Shown piece after piece: positions 42,307-62,802 of a stretch of DNA of 64,000 nucleotides. Every line of letters starts with the position of its first letter. Within the stretch, counting starts at the first letter, position 1. Origin of the DNA: Streptomyces bacillaris (lineage in GTDB: Bacteria; Actinomycetota; Actinomycetes; Streptomycetales; Streptomycetaceae); assembly GCF_003268675.1 (NCBI RefSeq), contig NZ_CP029378.1, positions 992,001 through 1,056,000 of the forward strand, in the 5' to 3' direction. Below the pieces are notes generated by a model that saw only the letters and a list, made by a program, of their open reading frames with translations, did not search any database and had not been told where the DNA came from. Made by a program: the position numbers and the translations under genes.

Positions 42307-45300
42307 ATGTGGAGGCATGCGCTTTCGCGCAGCAGCCGAGGGGCCTTGGCCGGCCTCTTGAGCGTGGCCATAGTGGGGGTGTCGGCCCCAGGGGCGCTCG
42401 CCACGCAGTCGGCACCGAAGGCGGTGAGCGCGGCCGAGAGAGCCTCCGGCACCGCGGACGACGCCGCCACGAGCGCCCTGGCTGAAGCCAAGCGCACGGG
42501 GAAGCCCGTGGAACTTGTGGCGGAACGCTCCGAGCGCGCAACGGTTTTCGCCAACCCGGACGGGGTCTCTTTCACAGCGGAGCAGTCGACCGTTCCGGTC
42601 CGTGTGGCGAAGGAGGGTGGCGGCTGGCAGGCCCCCGACGCAACTCTCGTACGGTGGGGTGACGGCACCGTAGGGCCCAGGGCTGCCGCGGCCGACGTAA
42701 GGTTCTCCGGGGGTGGGGACGCATCCCCGCTCGCCACGATCGCGGACGAGGGACGTTCCCTCAGCCTCTCCTGGCCCGGCACTCTGCCGAAGCCCGAACT
42801 CAGCGGGACCACCGCCCTCTACCCGGACGTACTGCCCGGTGTCGACCTGCAGGTCAACGCGACGGTGGAAAGCTTCCAACACCTCTTGGTGGTGAAGACG
42901 CCCGAGGCTGCCGAGGATCCGCGGCTGAAGAAGGTGTCGTTCGGGCTGAGTACCGAGGGGCTGACGGTCCGCCAGGGAGCGGCGGGCAACCTCGCCGCCG
43001 TGGACGCGAACGGAGCCACGGTCTTCCGCGCGCCGCCTCCTCAGATGTGGAACTCGGCCGGCAAGGCAGCTGCCGCCAAGGGGCGGAAGACTGCTCCTCA
43101 GGGGGCTCCGGCCGGATCCGCCTACGCAACCACGGCCCCTCCCACCGCCCCGGAGATCCCCGGTGACACGGCGGAGAACACTCCTTCCGGCAAGGGTGTG
43201 GAGCCCGGACAGGGCGACCGGGTCGTCCGGATGGACGTACAGGTCACGAAGGACGCGCTCGCCGTGACGCCGGACACGTCCATGCTGACCGAGGCGAAGG
43301 GGACGGACTTCCCGCTCTTCATCGATCCGAACGTCACCTGGGGCGAGTCGGAGCGTACGCTCCTGCGCTCGGACGGCTACGAGTCGTACGGCTGGGGCAA
43401 CGGCGACGACAACCTGGGCAAGGGCGTCGGCAAGTGCGGTACCTGGAACGGCTACTACTGCGGCCCCGGCTATGTGCAGCGGCTCTACTACGAGTTCTCG
43501 CCGGCAGAGCTCAAGGGCAAGCAGGTGCTCGACGCCACCTTCCGGGTAACCGAGCCCTGGGCGTTCCAGTGCAGTCCACGCTGGGTCGACCTGGTCCGCA
43601 CCAACAACATCTCGTCGTCCACCACCTGGGCCTCCCGTCCCAAGGAGCTGGACCTGATGGTCGACCGGAACGTGTCCGCGGGCCGTGGCTCGCTCTGCGA
43701 CCCCGACTCCCCGGACGCGGCCATCGAGTTCCGGGACAACCCCGAGGAGACCAACGAGAACCTGACGCCGACCGTCCGTGACTTCGCCGCGGGCAAGTTC
43801 TCCAGGCTCACCCTGCAACTCCGTGCCCATGACGAGTCGGACACTTCAGCCTGGAAGCGGTTCCGCAACGACGCGGTCCTTTCGGTGAAGTTCGTCGCCC
43901 TCCCCGCGCTGCCGACGGGTGTGGGCCTGGTGTCCGGCAACGGCACGGTGTGCTCGACGCAGGCGGCCGACCCCGACATCATCAGCGACCCGACTCCGCT
44001 GGTCACCGGCAAGCCCAAGACCGCGTCGGGCGGGGAGTCCGGTGCCAGTCTGCGGATCCGGTGGCGGACGCAACGCCTGGACAGCGGTACGTGGGTGACC
44101 GCGCACACCGATGTGGACAGCCCCACGTCCGGCTACGTCGGCAACCTCGTGACCCAGTCCAAGAGCCTGCCCAAGTTGTCCGAAGGAGTGCGCTACCGAC
44201 TCCTCGCCCTCACTCTCTCGTTCGACGAGAAGGGAGCCAACCGGCTCAACACGGGTTACACGACACCGTGCTACTTCATGGTCGACGCCACCGCCCCCAA
44301 GGCGCCGAAGGTGACGCTGGAGAGCCCGCACACTCCGTGCCTGCCCAATTCCTGCGTACCTCGCGGGCGGCCGGGGGCTCCGGTGAACTTCGCCTTCGCC
44401 GCAGCCGACGGAGACCCGCCCACCCTGTCGTACCAGTACAGGCTGACGTCGCAAGAGGCTTGGGTCAACGCCCAGAAGGTCTGCAGCACCGGGTCGAGCT
44501 GGGTGTGCGCAGGGGCACCGGAACACAGCGTGTTGATCAAGGGAGGGAAGGCGACGGTCAAACCGGCGAAGTCCGGAACGTACCGCATCTACGTCCGCGC
44601 CAAGGACAGTCTCGGACGCTGGGGTGCGCAGAGCACGCTGGACTTCGCGATCGCGACCGGAGAGGCCCCGGAGGGGCGCTGGCATCTGTCCGAGGCCGAC
44701 GGGGTCGCGGTTGACTCCGAAGCAACCGACGGCCGCGACGATCTGACGCTCGGCGGTGGCGCGGTACGCGATGATCGCGGCCGCCGGGGGCTGCTCACGC
44801 ACGACGCCCAGGGGGTGCCACTGTCTCAGCCGGTTACCGACCGGGGCCTGGCCCTGAACGGGACGGACGGCCACGCGTCGTCGTCCGCCCGGGTCCTGGA
44901 GACCGACAAGTCCTACACCGTCACCGCCTGGGTGCGGCTCGACCCCGGCGCCAACCGCACCATGACCGTCCTGAGTCAGACACCGTCGACCGCCAGTCCC
45001 TTCACCCAGAAGTACAGCCCCTTCTACCTCTCCTACGGGGCCGGGGGCGACGGGACATGGAGTCTGCGGACCCTGTCCAAGGAAGGCCAGTTCAGCACCG
45101 TCAAGGCCAAGCACACGGCCTCACGCGGGGTCTGGACACACGTGGCCGGCGTCTATGACGCCGAGGAGAGCACGATCGGCCTCTACGTCAACGGACTCCT
45201 CCAGGAGACCGCCGCAGCCGGGACCGCTTGGGCCTCGGACGGTCCGCTGCAGGTCGGACGGGTCATGCACGCCGACGTGAACAAGGACTACCTCCACGGC

Positions 45301-46089
45301 TCGGTGGACGAGCCCGCCGTATGGCAGAGGGCCCTCAGTGAGGAGGAGATCAAGGACGAGGCGAGGCTGCTGACCTCGGGCGGCTTCGCGGGCGTCGAGC
45401 TCATGGCCGACTGGAACCCCACGGCGGGCAGCGGCACCACCGTCCCCGACACCACGTCCGGCTACGGCAGGAGCCTGGCGCTGCAAGGCGGCGCGGCCCT
45501 GGCCGACGAGGCCATCGTGCTGGACGGTGTGGACGACCGGGCCACGACCACGGCGGGCCCCGTCGTGGACGACCTGGGGTCCTTCACCGCCTCGACCCTG
45601 GTGAAACTCGACCCGGAGAAGCTGCTGACCAAGAGCATCGGCTACACCGGCCAGGTCCTCGGCCAGCGGACCTCCGACGGTTCGGCCTGGGGCTTCTGGT
45701 ACCAGCTGTCGGGCAAGGACACGGTGCTGGACATGGAGACCGGGCTCGAGACGACGGTGCCCGTCGGCAAGTGGCACTTCGGGCGGCTCAACAACGACGG
45801 CTCGTTCAGCTCCGTCGTCTCCGACGAAGTCGCCTCCCTCGACAGCGAGGTGCGGCTGACCGGGACATTCGACGCCCAGGAGGGCACGATCAGCCTGTAT
45901 CTGGGCCACAACCAGAACGGCGATTCCAAGGCGTACACCGCCCGGCTGAGCAGCGGTGAGTTCGCTCTGGGGGCGGGTTTCACCGGCGGCGCCTGGAAGC
46001 ACCATCTGCCGGCCCGCATCTTCGAAACCCGCCTGTGGGCGGGGGCTATGGCGAGTTCGGCGCAGATCGACGAGCACGTCGGCGACTGA
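42307..46089 (+). CDS. Secreted DNRLRE/LamG-domain protein, RHS-associated
   Basis: A 1260-residue exported protein. The signal peptide is residues 1-32 (LAGLLSVAIVGVSAPGALA). Residues 35-330 resemble the N-terminal region that often precedes RHS proteins (ALYPDVLPGVDLQVNATVESFQHLLVV). Residues about 350-540 are a DNRLRE-type beta-sandwich with YVQRLYYEFSPAELKGK and paired cysteines. A fibronectin-like segment with four cysteines follows, then two LamG/concanavalin-like domains (about 790-1020 and 1035-1258). Genes of this form commonly lie just upstream of large RHS/YD proteins in Streptomyces. It likely binds sugars on surfaces and may help in export or delivery. The downstream hairpin suggests partly separate transcription. 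Confidence 0.8.
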   Translation: MWRHALSRSSRGALAGLLSVAIVGVSAPGALATQSAPKAVSAAERASGTADDAATSALAEAKRTGKPVELVAERSERATVFANPDGVSFTAEQSTVPVRVAKEGGGWQAPDATLVRWGDGTVGPRAAAADVRFSGGGDASPLATIADEGRSLSLSWPGTLPKPELSGTTALYPDVLPGVDLQVNATVESFQHLLVVKTPEAAEDPRLKKVSFGLSTEGLTVRQGAAGNLAAVDANGATVFRAPPPQMWNSAGKAAAAKGRKTAPQGAPAGSAYATTAPPTAPEIPGDTAENTPSGKGVEPGQGDRVVRMDVQVTKDALAVTPDTSMLTEAKGTDFPLFIDPNVTWGESERTLLRSDGYESYGWGNGDDNLGKGVGKCGTWNGYYCGPGYVQRLYYEFSPAELKGKQVLDATFRVTEPWAFQCSPRWVDLVRTNNISSSTTWASRPKELDLMVDRNVSAGRGSLCDPDSPDAAIEFRDNPEETNENLTPTVRDFAAGKFSRLTLQLRAHDESDTSAWKRFRNDAVLSVKFVALPALPTGVGLVSGNGTVCSTQAADPDIISDPTPLVTGKPKTASGGESGASLRIRWRTQRLDSGTWVTAHTDVDSPTSGYVGNLVTQSKSLPKLSEGVRYRLLALTLSFDEKGANRLNTGYTTPCYFMVDATAPKAPKVTLESPHTPCLPNSCVPRGRPGAPVNFAFAAADGDPPTLSYQYRLTSQEAWVNAQKVCSTGSSWVCAGAPEHSVLIKGGKATVKPAKSGTYRIYVRAKDSLGRWGAQSTLDFAIATGEAPEGRWHLSEADGVAVDSEATDGRDDLTLGGGAVRDDRGRRGLLTHDAQGVPLSQPVTDRGLALNGTDGHASSSARVLETDKSYTVTAWVRLDPGANRTMTVLSQTPSTASPFTQKYSPFYLSYGAGGDGTWSLRTLSKEGQFSTVKAKHTASRGVWTHVAGVYDAEESTIGLYVNGLLQETAAAGTAWASDGPLQVGRVMHADVNKDYLHGSVDEPAVWQRALSEEEIKDEARLLTSGGFAGVELMADWNPTAGSGTTVPDTTSGYGRSLALQGGAALADEAIVLDGVDDRATTTAGPVVDDLGSFTASTLVKLDPEKLLTKSIGYTGQVLGQRTSDGSAWGFWYQLSGKDTVLDMETGLETTVPVGKWHFGRLNNDGSFSSVVSDEVASLDSEVRLTGTFDAQEGTISLYLGHNQNGDSKAYTARLSSGEFALGAGFTGGAWKHHLPARIFETRLWAGAMASSAQIDEHVGD

Positions 46090-46103
46090 CCGAGGCACCA
46101 CCC

Positions 46104-46140
46104 GTGGGGCGGCGTCATGCGAGACATGGCGCCGCCCCAC
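46104..46140 (+). terminator. Hairpin between LamG and RHS genes
   Basis: A perfect 11-bp stem (GTGGGGCGGCG with CGCCGCCCCAC) and 15-base loop sit in the 118-base gap between the two genes. Confidence 0.65.
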
Positions 46141-46207
46141 CTTTGAGCGGCCATGGAGCCGCAAGCGAAACACCACACCGTTGGTGAGACCCGTGGGGGA
46201 TAACCGC

Positions 46208-49200
46208 ATGTTGTTCGGCACAGTGAAATCACGACCACGGAAGGTCGGCCGGCCAGGCCGGAGCCTTCTGGCGAGCGTTCTGGCCATGTTCGTGGCCGTT
46301 CCCATCGTCTACGCGCCGACCGCCGATGCCCGGCCGGGGGGTCTGGGCCGCCCCGAGGTCCAGGAGCAGCGGGTCAGCAAGGTGCGACCGGTCGACGGCC
46401 CGGGCGCGCAGAAAGCGCGGGCACAGGTGGCCGCCGATCTGGCGGCCAATTCGGTGCAGGCCCGCAGGGCCGAGGCCGAACAGCGAAAGGCCGTATGGCC
46501 CGAGCCCGGCAGCGCGAAGCTCACCCCGGGTGCCGTCAAACGGGCCGCGGGGAGTCTGCCGTTGACCCTGCGTTCGGCCCCGAGCAGGAAGAGCTCGGCC
46601 GACGTCGGCACAGCCACCGTGAACGTCCTGGACCAGAGGACCGCCGACCGTCTCGGCATCACCGGTGTGGTCATGACCGCCGAGGCCGAGACGGCGGGCA
46701 AGGGCGAGATAGCGGTCGACTACGGCGACTTCGCCTCCGCGGTGGGCGGCGGCTGGGCCGGACGACTGGAACTCGCGACGCTCCCCGCCTGCGCGCTGAC
46801 GACTCCGGAGAAGTCCGTCTGTCGTACGCGTACGCCCCTTCCATCGGCCAACGACACGCGCGAGCAGACCGTGTCCGCCGTCGTACCGCTGAGTGCCCCC
46901 TCCGATGGCGGCTCGCCGCGGTCTGCCTCCTCCGCCCCCGGCCCCACCGTTCTGGCCCTGGCAGCCCCTGGGGCCGGCACCGGGGAATCTCCCTCGGGCA
47001 GTGGTGACTACTCGGCCACCGACCTCTCCGAGTCCTCGTCGTGGTCGGCCGGCAGCAGTTCGGGGTCCTTCACCTGGTCGCACGACTTCCCCCTTCCCAC
47101 GCCCGCCGCCGGACCGGCGCCGACTCTGTCCCTCGGCTATGACTCGGGCAGTGTCGACGGCCGCACCGCCTCCACGAACAATCAGGGCAGCACGGTCGGC
47201 GAAGGATTCAGCAGCACCGAATCGTATGTGGAGCGCTCCTACGGGAGCTGCGACAAAGACGGGCAGGACGACGTCTTCGACCTCTGCTGGAAGTACGACA
47301 ACGCCCGGCTCGTCCTGAACGGCAAGTCCTCCACTCTGGTCAAGGACACCACATCGGGCAAGTGGCGGCTCCAGGGCGACGACGCATCGAAGGTCACCCG
47401 GTCCACCGGGGCCGACAACGGGGACGACGACGGCGAATACTGGACCGTGGTCACCGGTGACGGTTCCACGTATGTCTTCGGCCTGAACAAGCTGCCGGGT
47501 GCGGCTGCCCAGCGCACCCACTCCGTGTGGACCGCACCCGTCTTCGGCGACGACTCGGGCGAGCCCGGATACGACGAGGGCAACTCGTTCGCCGGTCGTT
47601 CACTGACGCAGGCGTGGCGGTGGAACCTCGACTACGTCCACGACACCCGTGGCAACGCGTCCACCTACTGGTACGCGGCCGAGGAGAACCACTACCGGAA
47701 GAACAAGTCGGCCAAGTCCGATGCTTCCTACGTCCGCGGCGGGTACCTCAGGGAGATCCAGTACGGCCTCCGCAAGGGGGCGCTGTTCACCGGCAACGCC
47801 GACGCCAAGGTCACCTTCGGCTACGCAGAGCGCTGCACGGTCTCCGACTGCTCCGAGCTGAAGAAGGAAACCGCGGAGAGATGGCCGGATGTCCCCTTCT
47901 ACGCCATCTGCTCGAACGGCTCCGGCGACTGTGACGCGCTGGCGCCGGCCTTCTTCACCCGCAAGCGCCTGACCTCCGTCAACACCTTCACCTGGTCGGC
48001 GGCGACGTCCTCGTACGATCCCGTCGACTCCTGGGCGCTGACCCAGAAGTATCTCGACGGGGGCGACATCGGTGATACGACCGACCATGTGCTGACGCTC
48101 CAGTCACTCCGGCGGACCGCCAAGGCCGGTTCCACCCCCGTCGTCATGGACCCCATCACCTTCACCTACCACATGCGCCCCAACCGGGTGGACGGTACGG
48201 ACGACATCCTGCCGCTGACCCGGCCCCGGATATCGACGATCACGTCGGAGACCGGTGCCATCTCCACCGTCACGATGTCCGCTCCCGAGTGTGTGCGGAG
48301 CGAGGTGACCGGAGCCGCCGAGGACACCAACACCCGTAGCTGCTTCCCGCAGTTCTGGAACATCAACGGTTCCTCCACCGCCTCCGTGGACTGGTTCCAC
48401 AAGTACCGGGTACTCGCCGTGGTCACCTCCGACCCGTCCGGGCACAACGACGTCCTGGAGCAGGAGTTCGCGTACAGCGGCGCAGCCTGGCACTACAACG
48501 ACTCGCCCCTGACGCCCAAGGAGGAACGGACCTGGTCCGACTGGCGCGGCTACCGCCAGGTGACCGTCTACAAGGGAGCCAAGGACACCACCCGTTCCCG
48601 GACCGTCTCCCTCTACCTCCAAGGCATGAACGGCGACGCCACGCGGTCCGGGCCCCCCAGGTCCGTCAGCGTGCCCGGTCTGCCGGTCCCGGGCCTCACG
48701 GTCCCCTCCATCACCGACGACGCCGACTACGGAGGCCAGCTCCGCCAGCAGATCACGTACTCCGGTGCCACGGCGATCGGGGCCGTGGTCAACGAGCCCT
48801 GGGCGCAGGAGACGGCCCGGCAGAAGGTGCCGGGCGCCGGGGACCATGTCGCACGTTATGTGCGGACCCGGAAGACCACCACCCACACGTACCTGACCGT
48901 GCCGAAGTCCTGGCGCTCCCGTACGGTCACGACCGATCATGACGACCACGGGATGCCGTACCAGGTCCAGGACAGCGGTGACGACGCCAGATCCGGCGAC
49001 GAGACCTGCACCCGTACCTGGTACGCGCGGAACGCGGACGCCGGTATCACCACTCTGCCGTCCCGGGTCAGGACCGTCGGCAGGACCTGCTCGGTGACCG
49101 ATGCCGCGCTGAATCTGCCGGCCACCTCGGCACAGCGCGGTGATGTCCTCTCGGACACCGCGCTCGCCTACGACGGCGCCACCTGGTCCGCCACCCAGAA

Positions 49201-52200
49201 GCCCACCGTGGGCCTCACCACCTGGAGCGGCCGCGCGGCCTCGTACAACGCGGCGGACCAGCCCTCGTGGCAGACCGTCTCCACCACGGGCTACGACGCG
49301 CTCGGCCGGGCCACCTCCTCCACCGACGCGGCCCAGCACACGACGAGGACGGATTACGTTCCGGCGCAGGGCGGTCCGGTGACGCGCACCGATGTCACCA
49401 ACGCCAAGGGCCACAAGACCATCACTTTCTTCGACACCCGGCGCAATCTGCCGTTGCGGACGTTCGACCCCAACGCCAAGAAGACGGAGGTCGCCTACGA
49501 CGCCGTGGGCCGCATGACCGAGGTCTGGCTGCCGAACCGCAACCGTGCTGCTGGCTACAGCCCGAACCAGAAGTTCGGCTACCGCCTGAGCAGGACCGAC
49601 GCGTCGGCGGTCTCCACCTCGGTGCTCAACAAGGACGGCACCACTTACCAGACCACGTACGCGATCTACGACTCCCTGCTGCGTCCGCTCCAGAAGCAGT
49701 CGCCCACTCCGCAGGGGGGCCGACTGCTCACCGACACCCGTTACGACTCTCGGGGCCTGGCTTACGAGACGCATGCGGACATCTTCGACAGCAAGAACCT
49801 GCCCAACGGCACCTACACCCGGGCCGAGTACGGCGAGTCGCCCACCCAGACCGAAGTCGTCTTCGACGGCGCCGGCCGCGAGACATCGCGTTCGGTGTAC
49901 TTCTTCGGGGTCAAGCGCTGGACCACATCCACCCAGCACACCGGCGATTCCACGGCCACCTCGTCCCTAGCGGGCGGCAACGCGACCCGGGCGGTCGTCG
50001 ATGCCCGCGGGCTGACGGTGGAGACACGCTCGTACGCCGGTTCCTCCCCCAACGACGTCCAGTACGGCAGCGCCACCGGTGCCGCGTACACATCCGCGAG
50101 GACGGGCTACACGCTCGACGGCAAGGAGACCACGTTCACCGGGCCGGACAACTCCGTGTGGACCTACGGCTACGACCTCTTCGGCCGCCGCACCACGGTG
50201 AACGACCCGGACAAGAAGGACGCGGACAGCGAGTACAACGCGCTCGACCAGCTCACCAGGATCACCGACAGCAGGAAGGCGGCGGTCCTCACCGAGTACG
50301 ACGAGATCGGCCGGATCACCGCCACCTGGGCGGGCAGCAAGACGGATGCCAACCAGTTGACCGCGCACCGGTACGACGACGTGCTCAAGGGCAGTCCGTC
50401 TTCGTCCACCCGCTACGTCGGTGGCAAAGCCGGAAAGGCGTACGTCCGCGAGGTCGTCGCCTACGACAGTCTGGGCCGCGCCACGGGCACCCGGCTGAAG
50501 CTTCCCGCGAGCGACCCGCTGGTCGTGGCCGGGGCACCGGCCACGATCGACTTCTCGACCGCCTTCAACATCGACGGCTCGAAGGCGAACTCCACAGAAC
50601 CGGGGTTGGGCGGCCTTCCCTCCGAGGTTCTCACCTACGGCCACACGCCCCTCGGCGAGATCAAGTCGATCGTCGGCTCCACCGGGTATCTGCTCTCCGC
50701 CGACTACTCGGCCCTCGGCCAGGTGCAGCAGCTCGTGCTCGGCACCGCGAACACCGAGGCCCACAAGAAGGCCTACGTGACCAACACCTACGAGGAGGGA
50801 ACCGGCCGGCTGACCCGGAGCCATGTCACGGACCAGACGCATCCGTACATGCTCCAGGATCTCAACTACACCTTCAACGACGCCGGCAACGTGACGGCCA
50901 TATCCGACCCGACGACGCTGGGCGGAGCCGGCAAGGCCGAGACCCAGTGCTTCGCCTACGACGGTTTCCGACGTCTCACGGAGGCATGGACCCCCGCCTC
51001 ACAGAAGTGCGGCGATACCCGGAAGGCCGACAGCCTCTCCGGTCCCGCTCCGTACTGGACCGGCTATACCTACGACGACGCCGGTCAGCGCCGGACGGAG
51101 ACCCAGCACCGGACCACCGGTGATGTCACGACCACCTACTGCTACACCGACGCCCGCCCGCATCTGCTGACCGGGACCAGCACGCAGAACAACTGCGCGG
51201 CTCCGCAGCGCTCGTACACGTACGACGAGACGGGCAACACGCGCAGCCGGCCGGGTGCGTCCGGGACTCAGGACCTCAAGTGGGACAAGGAAGGCAGGCT
51301 GGAAAGCCTTTCGGAGGGGGCCAGGAGCACCGACTACGTCTACGACGCCGACGGCAACCTGCTGATCCGCAGCGAGAAGAACGGCGAGCGCGTTCTGTAC
51401 GCCGGCGGGACAGAGCTGCATCTCAAGTCCGATGGAAAGTTCTGGGCCCAGCGCTTCTACGGGACGCAGCAGCTGACCGTCGCCATCCGCTCCAACGAGT
51501 CGGGCACCAACAAGCTCCAGTACCTGGCCGGTGACCGCCACGGAACCTCCTCCCTCGCCATCGCCTCCGACACCCAGGCGTTCACCAAGCGATACATGAC
51601 CGTCTTCGGTGCGGAACGCGCGGGAGCCATCGGCCTCTGGCCGGGAGACCGGGGTTTCCTGGGCAAGACGCACGACAGGTCCACCGGGCTGACGCATGTC
51701 GACGCTCGTGAGTACGATGCGGCGCTCGGCCGTTTCATCAGCGTCGACCCGCTGCTGGAGCCGGGCAAGCACCAGTCGCTCAACGGATACGGATACGCCG
51801 AGAACAATCCAGCGACCCTGTCCGACCCATCGGGGCTGGGCTCCTTCTCCTGCACCATGGGGGTGGACTGCAGCGCCGCGGTGGTAAAGGTCGAGTCCAC
51901 CGTGTCGCCGCCGCTCTACGGCGCCAGCAGCACGGGCCACTCGGGCACCGCGTGGAACTCCCCCCTCGGCTTCACGGGCAGCTCCGCCTCTCCCCTGCTG
52001 CCGTCCCCGCCGCCGCTGCTCATGGGGCCCGACCCCATCGAGCTGCAGTACACGGGGCCGATGAGCCCGGCACAGAAGATGCAGGCGCTCAAGCGGTATC
52101 TGGACAGCATTCCCGTACAGTCCGGCTCGCTGGTCCACAACGACCACGGCGGGGACGGGAAGGTCAAGAGCGACGGGCCCTGGAGCCTTGCGTATCGTTG

Positions 52201-52702
52201 GATGTGGGGGAGCGATTTCAGCAATCCGACCAACACCATCTCGGACGCGAAGTTCGACGGTGACGACAAGATGACGGAACTCGTCAGGAAGAGCTCCGGC
52301 ATGAAGGACGTCCGCGAGCAGGTCGTGAAGCAATTCACCGAGACGGGGAAAAAGAGCGGAAAAGACAAGTACAGCGTCACCAAGAACCGGGACGGGTCCG
52401 AAAAGAGCAAGGCCCAGATGGCCCAATCCTACGTGGCCGACTTCGGCGGACTCCTCATCGGCAAGGAGAGCCGTGAGGCCCAGGGAGTCCTGGGCTCCTA
52501 CGACGTCACGTACGACATCGTGAAAAGCAAGGGCAATGAATTCACCGTCGAGTACCGCGTGAGAACAGACATCGACAACGAGTCTTTCGTGCCGGGCCAC
52601 AGCCCGGGCCAGAAGATATTCAACTACCTTCCGCAGAAGATGGGCGGATACTTCGCGGGATACCGAGTGGATATCAGATGGTCCGAAACCATGTACAAGT
52701 AG
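46208..52702 (+). CDS. RHS/YD-repeat polymorphic toxin, secreted
   Basis: A 2164-residue exported protein. A long signal peptide (residues 1-42, SLLASVLAMFVAVPIVYAPTADA) is followed by a hydrophilic linker. A large shell has many YD/RHS repeats (YDALGRATSSTDAAQHTTRTDY, YDAVGRMTEVWLPNRN, YDLFGRRTTVNDPD). The RHS core ends REYDAALGRFISVDPLLE...GYGYAENNPATLSDPSGL near residue 1877. The last 287 residues (51839-52699) differ in composition, are richer in Lys and lower in GC, and hold an unrecognised toxin domain ending YRVDIRWSETMYK. The shell should enclose and deliver it. GTGGGGGA precedes the ATG at 46208. A lipoprotein gene follows after 6 bases. Confidence 0.9.
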   Translation: MLFGTVKSRPRKVGRPGRSLLASVLAMFVAVPIVYAPTADARPGGLGRPEVQEQRVSKVRPVDGPGAQKARAQVAADLAANSVQARRAEAEQRKAVWPEPGSAKLTPGAVKRAAGSLPLTLRSAPSRKSSADVGTATVNVLDQRTADRLGITGVVMTAEAETAGKGEIAVDYGDFASAVGGGWAGRLELATLPACALTTPEKSVCRTRTPLPSANDTREQTVSAVVPLSAPSDGGSPRSASSAPGPTVLALAAPGAGTGESPSGSGDYSATDLSESSSWSAGSSSGSFTWSHDFPLPTPAAGPAPTLSLGYDSGSVDGRTASTNNQGSTVGEGFSSTESYVERSYGSCDKDGQDDVFDLCWKYDNARLVLNGKSSTLVKDTTSGKWRLQGDDASKVTRSTGADNGDDDGEYWTVVTGDGSTYVFGLNKLPGAAAQRTHSVWTAPVFGDDSGEPGYDEGNSFAGRSLTQAWRWNLDYVHDTRGNASTYWYAAEENHYRKNKSAKSDASYVRGGYLREIQYGLRKGALFTGNADAKVTFGYAERCTVSDCSELKKETAERWPDVPFYAICSNGSGDCDALAPAFFTRKRLTSVNTFTWSAATSSYDPVDSWALTQKYLDGGDIGDTTDHVLTLQSLRRTAKAGSTPVVMDPITFTYHMRPNRVDGTDDILPLTRPRISTITSETGAISTVTMSAPECVRSEVTGAAEDTNTRSCFPQFWNINGSSTASVDWFHKYRVLAVVTSDPSGHNDVLEQEFAYSGAAWHYNDSPLTPKEERTWSDWRGYRQVTVYKGAKDTTRSRTVSLYLQGMNGDATRSGPPRSVSVPGLPVPGLTVPSITDDADYGGQLRQQITYSGATAIGAVVNEPWAQETARQKVPGAGDHVARYVRTRKTTTHTYLTVPKSWRSRTVTTDHDDHGMPYQVQDSGDDARSGDETCTRTWYARNADAGITTLPSRVRTVGRTCSVTDAALNLPATSAQRGDVLSDTALAYDGATWSATQKPTVGLTTWSGRAASYNAADQPSWQTVSTTGYDALGRATSSTDAAQHTTRTDYVPAQGGPVTRTDVTNAKGHKTITFFDTRRNLPLRTFDPNAKKTEVAYDAVGRMTEVWLPNRNRAAGYSPNQKFGYRLSRTDASAVSTSVLNKDGTTYQTTYAIYDSLLRPLQKQSPTPQGGRLLTDTRYDSRGLAYETHADIFDSKNLPNGTYTRAEYGESPTQTEVVFDGAGRETSRSVYFFGVKRWTTSTQHTGDSTATSSLAGGNATRAVVDARGLTVETRSYAGSSPNDVQYGSATGAAYTSARTGYTLDGKETTFTGPDNSVWTYGYDLFGRRTTVNDPDKKDADSEYNALDQLTRITDSRKAAVLTEYDEIGRITATWAGSKTDANQLTAHRYDDVLKGSPSSSTRYVGGKAGKAYVREVVAYDSLGRATGTRLKLPASDPLVVAGAPATIDFSTAFNIDGSKANSTEPGLGGLPSEVLTYGHTPLGEIKSIVGSTGYLLSADYSALGQVQQLVLGTANTEAHKKAYVTNTYEEGTGRLTRSHVTDQTHPYMLQDLNYTFNDAGNVTAISDPTTLGGAGKAETQCFAYDGFRRLTEAWTPASQKCGDTRKADSLSGPAPYWTGYTYDDAGQRRTETQHRTTGDVTTTYCYTDARPHLLTGTSTQNNCAAPQRSYTYDETGNTRSRPGASGTQDLKWDKEGRLESLSEGARSTDYVYDADGNLLIRSEKNGERVLYAGGTELHLKSDGKFWAQRFYGTQQLTVAIRSNESGTNKLQYLAGDRHGTSSLAIASDTQAFTKRYMTVFGAERAGAIGLWPGDRGFLGKTHDRSTGLTHVDAREYDAALGRFISVDPLLEPGKHQSLNGYGYAENNPATLSDPSGLGSFSCTMGVDCSAAVVKVESTVSPPLYGASSTGHSGTAWNSPLGFTGSSASPLLPSPPPLLMGPDPIELQYTGPMSPAQKMQALKRYLDSIPVQSGSLVHNDHGGDGKVKSDGPWSLAYRWMWGSDFSNPTNTISDAKFDGDDKMTELVRKSSGMKDVREQVVKQFTETGKKSGKDKYSVTKNRDGSEKSKAQMAQSYVADFGGLLIGKESREAQGVLGSYDVTYDIVKSKGNEFTVEYRVRTDIDNESFVPGHSPGQKIFNYLPQKMGGYFAGYRVDIRWSETMYK
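51839..52699 (+). other. C-terminal toxin region of the RHS protein
   Basis: After the DPSGL end of the RHS core come a Ser/Pro-rich linker (residues about 1890-1945) and a domain of roughly 210 residues. The DNA is visibly poorer in GC than the shell. No nuclease, deaminase, ADP-ribosyltransferase or peptidase motif is recognised. The last 90 residues look beta-rich (LGSYDVTYDIVKSKGNEFTVEYRVRTDID). Activity unknown. Confidence 0.6.
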
Positions 52703-60524: not shown

Positions 60525-60866
60525 TTACGCGATCAGGGGGACGACGGCGGGTTCGACCGGTCCGGCGGATCGGGCCGAACCGACGGATCCGGCGGACCGG
60601 GCAGGCCCGGAGGCCGCCGTGCCCTCCGGTCCGCAGCGGCCGAGCAGCTCGTCCAGGGAGAGGCCGAGGGCCCCGGCCAGCGCGGCGACCGTGAAGAAGG
60701 CGGGGGTGGGGGCGCGGCCGGTCTCGATCTTGCGGAGGGTCTCGGCGGAGATTCCCGCGCTCGCCGCGACGGCGACCATGCTGCGCTCCCCGCGCGCCTC
60801 ACGCAGGAGGCGCCCGAGACGTTCGCCGCGGAGGCGCTCTTCGGGGGTGAGAGGGGTGCGGACCAT
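60525..60866 (-). CDS. XRE-family transcriptional regulator
   Basis: A 113-residue regulator. The HTH is at residues 12-75 (RLGRLLREARGERSMVAVAASAGISAETLRKIETGRAPTPAFFTVAALAGALGLSLDELLG), standard for XRE/Cro. A short Ser/Ala/Gly tail completes it, with no sensor domain. It is divergent from a methionine aminopeptidase, and a perfect 13-bp inverted repeat between them is probably its operator. It may be cotranscribed with the flavin-fold gene at 60116. Confidence 0.88.
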   Translation of the reverse strand: MVRTPLTPEERLRGERLGRLLREARGERSMVAVAASAGISAETLRKIETGRAPTPAFFTVAALAGALGLSLDELLGRCGPEGTAASGPARSAGSVGSARSAGPVEPAVVPLIA

Positions 60867-60903
60867 GGCCCCACTCTACTACGCCCCACCATTCTTATAC
60901 CGT

Positions 60904-60936
60904 CATTACTATACCGCTTCGACCGGTATAGTAATG
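60904..60936. promoter_or_regulatory. Perfect 13-bp inverted repeat over a leaderless promoter
   Basis: CATTACTATACCG (60904-60916), a 7-base spacer and its exact complement CGGTATAGTAATG (60924-60936) lie between the XRE and aminopeptidase genes. The right arm contains TATAGT (60927-60932), 7 bases before the ATG at 60940, so the operator covers the -10 box. A further TATACCG at 60896-60902 repeats the core. On the other strand TATAAG (60895-60900) may serve the XRE gene. Confidence 0.7.
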
Positions 60937-60939
60937 GGC

Positions 60940-61707
60940 ATGGTGCACATCAAGACCGACACATCCATCGAGGCCATGCGCGACTCCGGCCGGGTCGTCG
61001 CCCAGATCCTGACCCGCGCCCGGGAGGTCGCGGCGGTCGGCGTGACCCCCCGCGAGCTGGACGAGGCGGCCCGCGAGGTGCTGCGCGAGGCGGGGGCCGC
61101 CTCCCCCTTCCTCGACTACAAGCCGCACTTCGCGCCCACCCCCTTCCCCGCCGTCATCTGCGTCTCCGTCAACGACGCCGTCGTCCACGGCATCCCCTCC
61201 GCCGAACCCCTGCGCGACGGCGACCTGGTCAGCGTGGACGCGGGCGCCCTGCTCGACGGCTGGGCGGGCGACGCGGCGGTCAGCTTCACCGTGGGCGAGC
61301 CCCGCCCCGCCGACACCCGGCTGATCGCCACGGCGGAGGCCGCCCTGGCGGCGGGCATCGGCGCGGCCGTCGTCGGCAACCGGATCGGGGACATCGCCCA
61401 CGCCATCGGCAAGGTCTGCCGGGCGGCGGGCTACGGCATCCTCGACGGCCACGGCGGCCACGGCATCGGCCGTTCGATGCACGAGGACCCGTCCGTGCCG
61501 AACGAGGGCCGCCCGGGACGCGGTATGCCGCTGCGCCACGGGATGGTCCTCGCCATCGAGCCGATGCTGCTCGCGGGCGGCCTGGACGAGTTCCGCCACG
61601 ACCCGGACGGCTGGACCCTGCGGACGACCGACGGCAGCCGGGCCGCGCACGCCGAGCACACGGTGGCCATCACGGACGACGGCCCCCGCGTGCTCACCGC
61701 ACTCTGA
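60940..61707 (+). CDS. map: Methionine aminopeptidase, type I
   Basis: A 255-residue type I enzyme that removes the initiator methionine. Metal ligands are intact: the two aspartates in SVDAGALLDGWAGDAAVSF, histidine in GHGGHGIGRSMHEDP, and glutamates in AIEPMLL and AEHTVAI. There is no N-terminal zinc-finger extension. No ribosome site is present; TATAGT 7 bases before ATG 60940 points to leaderless translation (ATG 60934 is in frame but lies inside the operator). Streptomyces usually has a housekeeping map near ribosomal genes, so this is likely a regulated paralogue. Confidence 0.88.
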   Translation: MVHIKTDTSIEAMRDSGRVVAQILTRAREVAAVGVTPRELDEAAREVLREAGAASPFLDYKPHFAPTPFPAVICVSVNDAVVHGIPSAEPLRDGDLVSVDAGALLDGWAGDAAVSFTVGEPRPADTRLIATAEAALAAGIGAAVVGNRIGDIAHAIGKVCRAAGYGILDGHGGHGIGRSMHEDPSVPNEGRPGRGMPLRHGMVLAIEPMLLAGGLDEFRHDPDGWTLRTTDGSRAAHAEHTVAITDDGPRVLTAL

Positions 61708-61777: not shown

Positions 61778-62650
61778 TCAGCGCCCGACGAACGCCCTCG
61801 CCAGCTCCTCGCCCCTGCTCTCCGCCGTGGCGCGGCTCTCGATCGGGGAGATCCGGGAGTCCTTGAACGCGATGTACGTGACGCCGGACGCGGCCCCGCC
61901 CGTCGTCGGGTGGGGGTCGATGGACAGCTCCTCGGCCAGGGCATACGAGCCCTCCCCGATGATCCCGGCGGGCCCGGTGTCACCGATGACGGCGTACCGC
62001 ACCCTGCCCTCGTAGATCACGGCGACGACGCTGCCGCCGGTCAGCCCGGACTTCCGGTAGTCCCAGGTACGGCTCGGCGCCGGTACCACCACGAACGGCA
62101 GCGCGGCCGAGTCCAGGGGTTTGCCGCGCGAGCTGGTGAAGGCGGTCTGCGGCTGGAAGTAGGGGTCGGTCTTCTTGTTGCAGACCTTCGTCCGCCGCCC
62201 GTCGCAGTCGATGTCCATGTCCGCCTTCCAGAAGACGGCATCGCTGGTGGCGCAGACGGGAACGGTGGCCTTGGCGATGTTGGCGTCCGTACGGTACTTG
62301 CCCTGGGAGATCTGCCGGCAGGAGCGGACCTCCGCGAGCAGCTCCTCGGCGGTCACGGGGGCGTCGTCGGCCGGAACATCGGCCCGGGCGTCCGCCGTGG
62401 CATCGGTTCGGGCGTCCGCCGTGACCTCGGCCGGGGCATCCACCGTCGCGTCGGCCGGGACGCCCGGAGCCGGGTCCGCGAGGCCGTCGCCCGCCCACGC
62501 GTCCGGCAGGAGGCCGGCGCGCTCCCCCGGCGAGGTGTCCGGTGCGGGCCTGTGGGGCGTGGCGGTGGCGGGCAGTGCCGCGGGCCCGAGCAGGGCGGCG
62601 CCGCACACGGCGGAGGAGACGGCGGTCAGAGCGAACGTTCGGGTGCGCAT
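61778..62650 (-). CDS. Secreted chitosanase, glycoside hydrolase family 75
   Basis: A 290-residue exported protein. The signal peptide covers residues 1-30. An acidic Ala/Asp linker of roughly 60 residues follows, with repeats such as ADARTDATADARADV. The GH75 catalytic domain begins near residue 98: LAEVRSCRQISQGKY, then ADMDIDCDGRRTKVCN with the acidic residues expected in the active site. TWDYRKSGLTGGSVVAVIYEGRVRYAVIGDTGPAGIIGEGSYALAEEL is the most conserved run of the family. It cuts chitosan outside the cell. The linker may hold the enzyme to the surface or a partner. ATG 62650 start. Confidence 0.85.
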   Translation of the reverse strand: MRTRTFALTAVSSAVCGAALLGPAALPATATPHRPAPDTSPGERAGLLPDAWAGDGLADPAPGVPADATVDAPAEVTADARTDATADARADVPADDAPVTAEELLAEVRSCRQISQGKYRTDANIAKATVPVCATSDAVFWKADMDIDCDGRRTKVCNKKTDPYFQPQTAFTSSRGKPLDSAALPFVVVPAPSRTWDYRKSGLTGGSVVAVIYEGRVRYAVIGDTGPAGIIGEGSYALAEELSIDPHPTTGGAASGVTYIAFKDSRISPIESRATAESRGEELARAFVGR

Positions 62651-62742
62651 CGTGGGGACGGCCCTTCCAGTCGACCGGAGAGACCCGTCCGGGCCCCTCC
62701 TCTGCCGGCACGGGTTCGCCGGCGCTCCCTCCCCCGGCGGCC

Positions 62743-62781
62743 GGGCGGGCCGTACGCGGCGTCTCCGCGTACGGCCCGCCC
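62743..62781 (-). terminator. Strong terminator after the gamma-glutamyltransferase gene
   Basis: A perfect 17-bp stem (GGGCGGGCCGTACGCGG with its complement) closes a 5-base loop. It lies about 120 bases past the ggt stop and 93 bases before the chitosanase start. Confidence 0.8.
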
Positions 62782-62802
62782 GGCCGCCCCTTCTGCGAAA
62801 CC

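Follow-up and report, generated by a model that had tools for sequence, protein, structure and literature searches.

A divergent XRE regulator and a third methionine aminopeptidase in Streptomyces bacillaris: a probable autorepressed gene pair kept in Streptomyces and related bacteria

The XRE-MetAP locus

The window, by which we mean the whole 64-kb stretch of Streptomyces bacillaris DNA analysed here, contains a small regulator gene and a methionine aminopeptidase (MetAP) gene that diverge from a shared intergenic region (60867-60939). The locus comprises the following features:

60525-60866, minus strand: single-domain XRE (Cro/CI-type) regulator, 113 aa (HTH_31, HTH_3), divergent from the MetAP gene
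60873-60878, minus strand: XRE -10 box TAGAGT, 6 nt ahead of the XRE ATG, leaderless geometry
60890-60902, minus strand: third operator half-site CATTCTTATACCG (CGGTATAAGAATG on the minus strand), a motif match
60904-60916, minus strand: inverted copy of the operator half-site, forming the opposite arm of the perfect 13-bp repeat (13-bp arms in 0/20,000 shuffles)
60924-60936, plus strand: operator half-site CGGTATAGTAATG covering the -10 box of MetAP, a repeat arm, conserved
60927-60932, plus strand: MetAP -10 box TATAGT, 7 nt ahead of ATG 60940, leaderless geometry
60940-61707, plus strand: type I MetAP, 255 aa, with a six-residue insert between Y60 and C74 (TIGR00500, M24)

The regulator belongs to the XRE family, with Pfam scores above the cut-offs of both HTH_31 (41.5 bits, cut-off 27) and HTH_3 (33.1, cut-off 23), and HTH_31 matches all 23 aligned XRE members. 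Over residues 1-76 it resembles the solved protein 2ofy (E 2.5e-26), which we take to be an XRE regulator from Rhodococcus; 2ofy is of the same protein family and is known from its structure only, and the single paper found under its code uses it to test simulations (PMC9861041). The window XRE has no ligand domain. Two other identities were considered for it and rejected, a type II antitoxin of the HipB/Y4mF-like kind (22.5 bits, cut-off 71.65) and a protein of phage origin (no match in 50,697 phage records). PADLOC returned for this locus only a weak capH-type HTH match.

The divergent gene encodes a type I MetAP according to its TIGR00500 score of 244 bits (cut-off 171.35), and D100, D111, H174, E207, and E239, which we take to be the five metal ligands, are invariant between this protein and the housekeeping MetAPs. 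Seven genes of the genome exceed the M24 cut-off. The best relatives of the window protein among them are two MetAPs, 45% and 35% identical to it, which are taken as the housekeeping pair because both kinds were found in each of 30 further Streptomyces genomes searched. The earlier note had counted the window enzyme as a second MetAP and had named a sole map gene as one observation that would speak against its reading; the genome has three type I MetAPs, and the window enzyme is the third. Each of the 24 aligned MetAPs with a link to XRE or to the operator has six additional residues after Y60. They are absent from the three housekeeping-type enzymes compared (the two of this genome and one ribosomal-block MetAP), and the solved MetAPs 3tav, 1o0x, and 3tb5 are likewise gapped at this position. 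The insert aligns beside the substrate pocket, in a loop to which two tyrosines of the substrate pocket presumably belong in the E. coli enzyme. An AlphaFold model of the window MetAP (mean pLDDT 90.5) has as its nearest solved fold the Mycobacterium abscessus MetAP 3tav (52% identity, TM 0.93), which differs by the lack of the insert. Since the metal ligands are conserved, the window protein is expected to be an active enzyme with an altered pocket. Mycobacterium MetAP1c is also a type I enzyme and an extra actinomycete copy, but carries an N-terminal extension of ~40 residues (PMC3154147) that the window MetAP lacks, and the window MetAP has the pocket insert instead. The linked enzymes fall into two subfamilies, about 50% identical, each with a matching type of XRE.

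Operator and promoters

The arms of the inverted repeat (60904-60916 and 60924-60936) comprise 13 nt each, are 100% complementary, and enclose a gap of 7 nt. The repeat covers TATAGT, which 7 nt separate from the ATG at 60940; the coordinates thus bear out the earlier note, which had described a perfect 13-bp inverted repeat over the -10 box and TATAGT exactly 7 bases ahead of the ATG. When the 73-nt intergenic region was shuffled 20,000 times, arms of 13 nt never arose and the longest was 11. The whole 64-kb window has five places with comparable repeats (arms of 13 nt or more, gap 3-30), so the repeat alone is not unique and the case rests on its conservation. Within the repeat there is a second in-frame ATG (60934-60936); at this place the sequence is TTGG in most relatives, which retain the start at 60940 alone.

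The half-site consensus derived from 124 intergenic regions of MetAP subfamily 1 is ATACCGGTATAGTAATTGG. The half-site CGGTATNNNAAT occurs four times in the 7.9-Mb genome, and because three of these occurrences are at the XRE-MetAP locus the operator looks dedicated to it. Most near relatives in the set of loci L010-L018 retain the third half-site (60890-60902) in slightly altered form. A dyad operator over the promoter co-occurs with the XRE gene, as would be expected of an XRE repressor. A sigma-70 consensus scan recovered no promoter here, an expected outcome for a site with a weak -35 region. Duplicated operator copies are present in the intergenic regions of two other loci, L066 (genome G076) and L069 (G171), suggesting that half-sites are easily gained and moved.

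Start-codon geometry differs between the two genes. Of 172 unique intergenic regions, 167 have the pattern TAnnnT 6 or 7 nt ahead of the XRE start, and the pattern is hardly found elsewhere within 20 nt of XRE starts; these regions derive from 212 XRE starts, are heavy in Streptomyces, and are uncorrected for relatedness. Exactly 7 nt ahead of the MetAP start, the same pattern occurs in 97/124 regions of subfamily 1 and in 1/31 of subfamily 2. Shine-Dalgarno-like words precede one of the 97 leaderless-type MetAP starts, 26 of the 27 other subfamily-1 starts, and 30 of the 31 in subfamily 2. On the basis of this spacing and these word counts, leaderlessness would be general for XRE, and for MetAP a Streptomyces-type trait that appears dispensable for the system. 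At the window locus itself the -10 boxes are 6-7 nt ahead of the start codons and a Shine-Dalgarno sequence is missing, so that the leaderless MetAP proposed in the earlier note stands as to its geometry, which 97/124 subfamily-1 regions share, but not as a general property of the linked enzymes. The trait is a common one, with leaderless transcription at about 21% of the primary starts of S. coelicolor (PMC4895711).

Conservation in Streptomyces

An XRE match of 1.7e-17 or better was found in 372 of 392 Streptomyces genomes, and the other 20 have none better than 1e-7; the regulator is near-universal in the genus, not patchy. At 29 of the 30 Streptomyces loci fetched, which were the best XRE matches and included that of the window, MetAP is encoded divergently beside it. 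The promoter pattern CGGTATAGTAATNGNCATGGT, with at most one mismatch, is present in 151/246 Streptomyces genomes (reversed control: zero). All ten XRE-containing Streptomyces tested have an intact third MetAP, compared with two of the 20 that lack XRE. Sixteen of these 20 have the housekeeping MetAPs alone, two each; G168 and G028 retain an intact third MetAP, in G119 it is frameshifted or broken, and G188 has a remnant with a stop. That G168, G028, and G119 carry a MetAP with the operator but no intact XRE alongside counts against dedicated wiring. In G168 (locus L265) an intact operator precedes MetAP and no XRE lies within the 2.6 kb examined; this may be a natural strain whose MetAP gene is permanently on.

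Distribution in the class and on plasmids

Among 394 genomes of the class, which represent 137 genera, 165 genomes from 51 genera match the XRE profile. Outside Streptomyces, 45 loci were chosen to span 38 genera in 13 families; 40 of them contain MetAP, in 39 cases divergently, and five do not, and the MetAP-bearing loci represent 35 of the 38 genera and 13 families. The recurrent operator of the divergent pair is CCGGTATAnTwATTGG. Its exact form is found in 63 of the 165 genomes with XRE versus 2 of the 229 without (Fisher p 3e-25, relatedness uncorrected), and this is an undercount because the exact pattern demands TTGG and the XRE genomes it misses include the window's own (ATGG). XRE and MetAP distances correlate, with a Mantel r of 0.89 overall that includes shared descent, and of 0.78 and 0.70 within the subfamilies (at most 1/2,000 permutations). 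The Tsukamurella genes run in the same direction, and no upstream operator was seen there, which counts against the general picture. Across Streptomyces and related soil bacteria, the pairing looks ancient and undescribed; a search of freely accessible papers, by title and start of abstract, found no report of a divergent XRE-MetAP pair.

Large replicons catalogued as plasmids also carry relatives of the pair, in Streptomyces, Kitasatospora, Rhodococcus, and others; some of these replicons may be mislabelled or may be secondary chromosomes. The neighbours of these copies vary from case to case, and one copy is located near arsenic-resistance genes. A replicon of Tsukamurella tyrosinosolvens catalogued as plasmid 22 (NZ_LR134464.1; L047, 1066-6675) carries a ribosomal-protein block rpsH-rplF-rplR-rpsE-rpmD-rplO-secY-adk-map, which may be a duplicate of a chromosomal block or a mislabelled contig.

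Separation of regulator and enzyme

Pairs on one stretch of DNA could persist by hitch-hiking, but genomes in which regulator and enzyme are split could not owe their arrangement to it. Eight genomes were examined because the promoter pattern or MetAP was missing from them. In seven, no MetAP adjoins XRE, and the eighth, G046, has both genes. Among the seven, G087 and G019 possess another complete pair at a different place. In the remaining five, a MetAP of another branch is encoded elsewhere, preceded by the operator, and no XRE match lies within the 6 kb examined. In four of these (G170, G232, G072, and G211) there are exactly two CGGTATANTWATNG sites in each genome, one at the lone XRE and one before the distant MetAP, and the reversed-pattern control gave 0; the fifth, G034, has a variant operator. 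Four more came from the class scan, G133 from Streptomyces and G459, G636, and G427 from another genus, which brings the cases of the same operator before a distant MetAP to six Streptomyces and three species of another genus. Because physical linkage cannot account for a distant MetAP preceded by the operator, the split cases are counted as the strongest evidence that XRE would act on MetAP. The class scan also yielded nine operator sites judged to be away from XRE starts; five precede MetAP and four do not. Operator matches near no MetAP (G597, G701, the second of G512, and G577) count against a dedicated operator, as do lone XREs without a good operator nearby (G715, G760, and G459). Taken together, these comparisons strongly support the regulated MetAP with a dedicated XRE claimed in the earlier note: the pair, the operator, and the -10 position are conserved class-wide, and the operator also precedes MetAP genes sited away from XRE.

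An autorepressed divergon

As regards the regulatory wiring and the identity of the enzyme, we consider it probable that a spare type I MetAP is kept down by an autorepressor dedicated to it; that the XRE binds and represses, that it regulates itself, that the mRNAs are leaderless, and that the enzyme is active are all deduced from sequence comparison. The small XRE protein, probably a dimer, would bind CCGGTATA-type half-sites over or beside the -10 boxes of the XRE and MetAP genes, and the position and conservation of these sites suggest that both genes would thereby be kept low. Some signal would relieve the repression, and the derepressed cell would make a spare type I MetAP with an altered pocket loop on top of its two housekeeping MetAPs. 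In S. bacillaris both mRNAs probably start at or beside the AUG. The purpose may be extra or inhibitor-tolerant removal of N-terminal methionine when the housekeeping enzymes become limiting. We propose inhibitor tolerance or back-up only tentatively, as altered substrate choice and causes not yet thought of share the larger part of the probability.

All cells remove methionine from new proteins as a housekeeping task. The step is also a drug target, yet dedicated control of it is hardly known. The class-wide tie between XRE and MetAP, which extends to distant or 50%-identical replacement enzymes, would mean that switchable excision is worth keeping in soil actinomycetes, and the signal could reveal natural MetAP inhibitors or stresses that impair N-terminal processing. 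Bacillus subtilis yflG is similar to the window MetAP in that it encodes an extra, weakly expressed, functional type I MetAP under the control of a repressor, YvoA, by which it is weakly repressed (PMC1266368). This repressor (YvoA/NagR), however, is weak and belongs to the GntR/HutC family (PMC4333415), and the available text of PMC1266368 describes neither a dedicated divergent autorepressor nor a shared operator. The same authors saw a paired duplication of deformylase and MetAP (PMC1266368). A deformylase link found no support in Streptomyces, with PF01327 means of 2.6 in 15 genomes without XRE and 2.9 in 19 with it (Mann-Whitney p 0.32).

Alternative functions

The earlier note had suggested resistance to a MetAP inhibitor or a change of the stress proteome. 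The spare MetAP might indeed be a resistance device, insensitive to a natural inhibitor and made when XRE is released on sensing the inhibitor or its effect. The substrate-pocket loop insert in 24/24 linked and 0/3 housekeeping-type MetAPs would fit this explanation, as would the plasmid-borne copies, including the one near arsenic-resistance genes. However, H83 and all metal ligands, presumably the contacts of such inhibitors, are unchanged, a Pfam search with 21 open reading frames of the window revealed no inhibitor gene cluster, and XRE is near-universal in Streptomyces, not patchy. Producer self-resistance to bengamide, a MetAP inhibitor, finds mention in PMC6022970 and favours resistance; for a Streptomyces compound with MetAP as its target there is an in silico prediction only (PMC9983862). 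On balance we regard resistance as rather unlikely. We are equally doubtful of a device for specificity, in which the insert would alter the second residues accepted and induction would change protein N-termini, e.g., during development or stress. The same six-residue insert by the substrate pocket is compatible with this function, and YflG of B. subtilis, the more active but weakly expressed second MetAP, is thought to have other targets (PMC1266368), but no developmental link was seen at the loci studied here.

A bolder reading starts from the regulator. Since this protein has a MetAP as its target and is devoid of a ligand domain, its own methionine is a possible sensor. XRE would then gauge MetAP activity by its own N-terminus, and the output gene would be whichever MetAP is present. 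If Met1 is removed, the N-terminal arm would bind DNA; if MetAP activity falls, Met1 would stay, repression would weaken, and the spare MetAP would be made. Of 172 relatives whose intergenic regions are distinct, 171 have Val at residue 2, and since all four Val codons are in use the constraint acts on the protein; Met-Val is a borderline MetAP substrate. Residue 4 is free. A structural role of the arm would equally explain the conservation of Val2, as P5, L6, and many HTH residues are just as invariant, and we consider such a homeostat improbable. A selfish or addiction-like pair of mobile elements, which the plasmid copies in Streptomyces, Kitasatospora, Rhodococcus, and others and the weak HipB-like match of XRE might suggest, is most improbable, because the antitoxin model scores far under its cut-off, MetAP is lost while XRE stays and persists without it, and XRE occurs in none of the phage records searched.

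Neighbouring genes

No functional partner beyond MetAP emerged among the locus neighbours in Streptomyces and at 40 loci of other genera whose flanks were examined. The PPOX, GH75, and gamma-glutamyltransferase genes and a gene for a 514-aa protein are partly kept in Streptomyces and were found at none of these 40 loci. The GH75 gene (fungal-type chitosanase, 61778-62650) is situated directly downstream of MetAP on the opposite strand and is present at part of the Streptomyces loci. Between the GH75-type and gamma-glutamyltransferase genes is a perfect inverted repeat (62736-62788, arms of 24 nt by nested hits), possibly a terminator. Farther away in the window, two very large plus-strand reading frames (42307-52702) with a Laminin_G_3 domain and an RHS repeat possibly encode a polymorphic toxin or wall protein.
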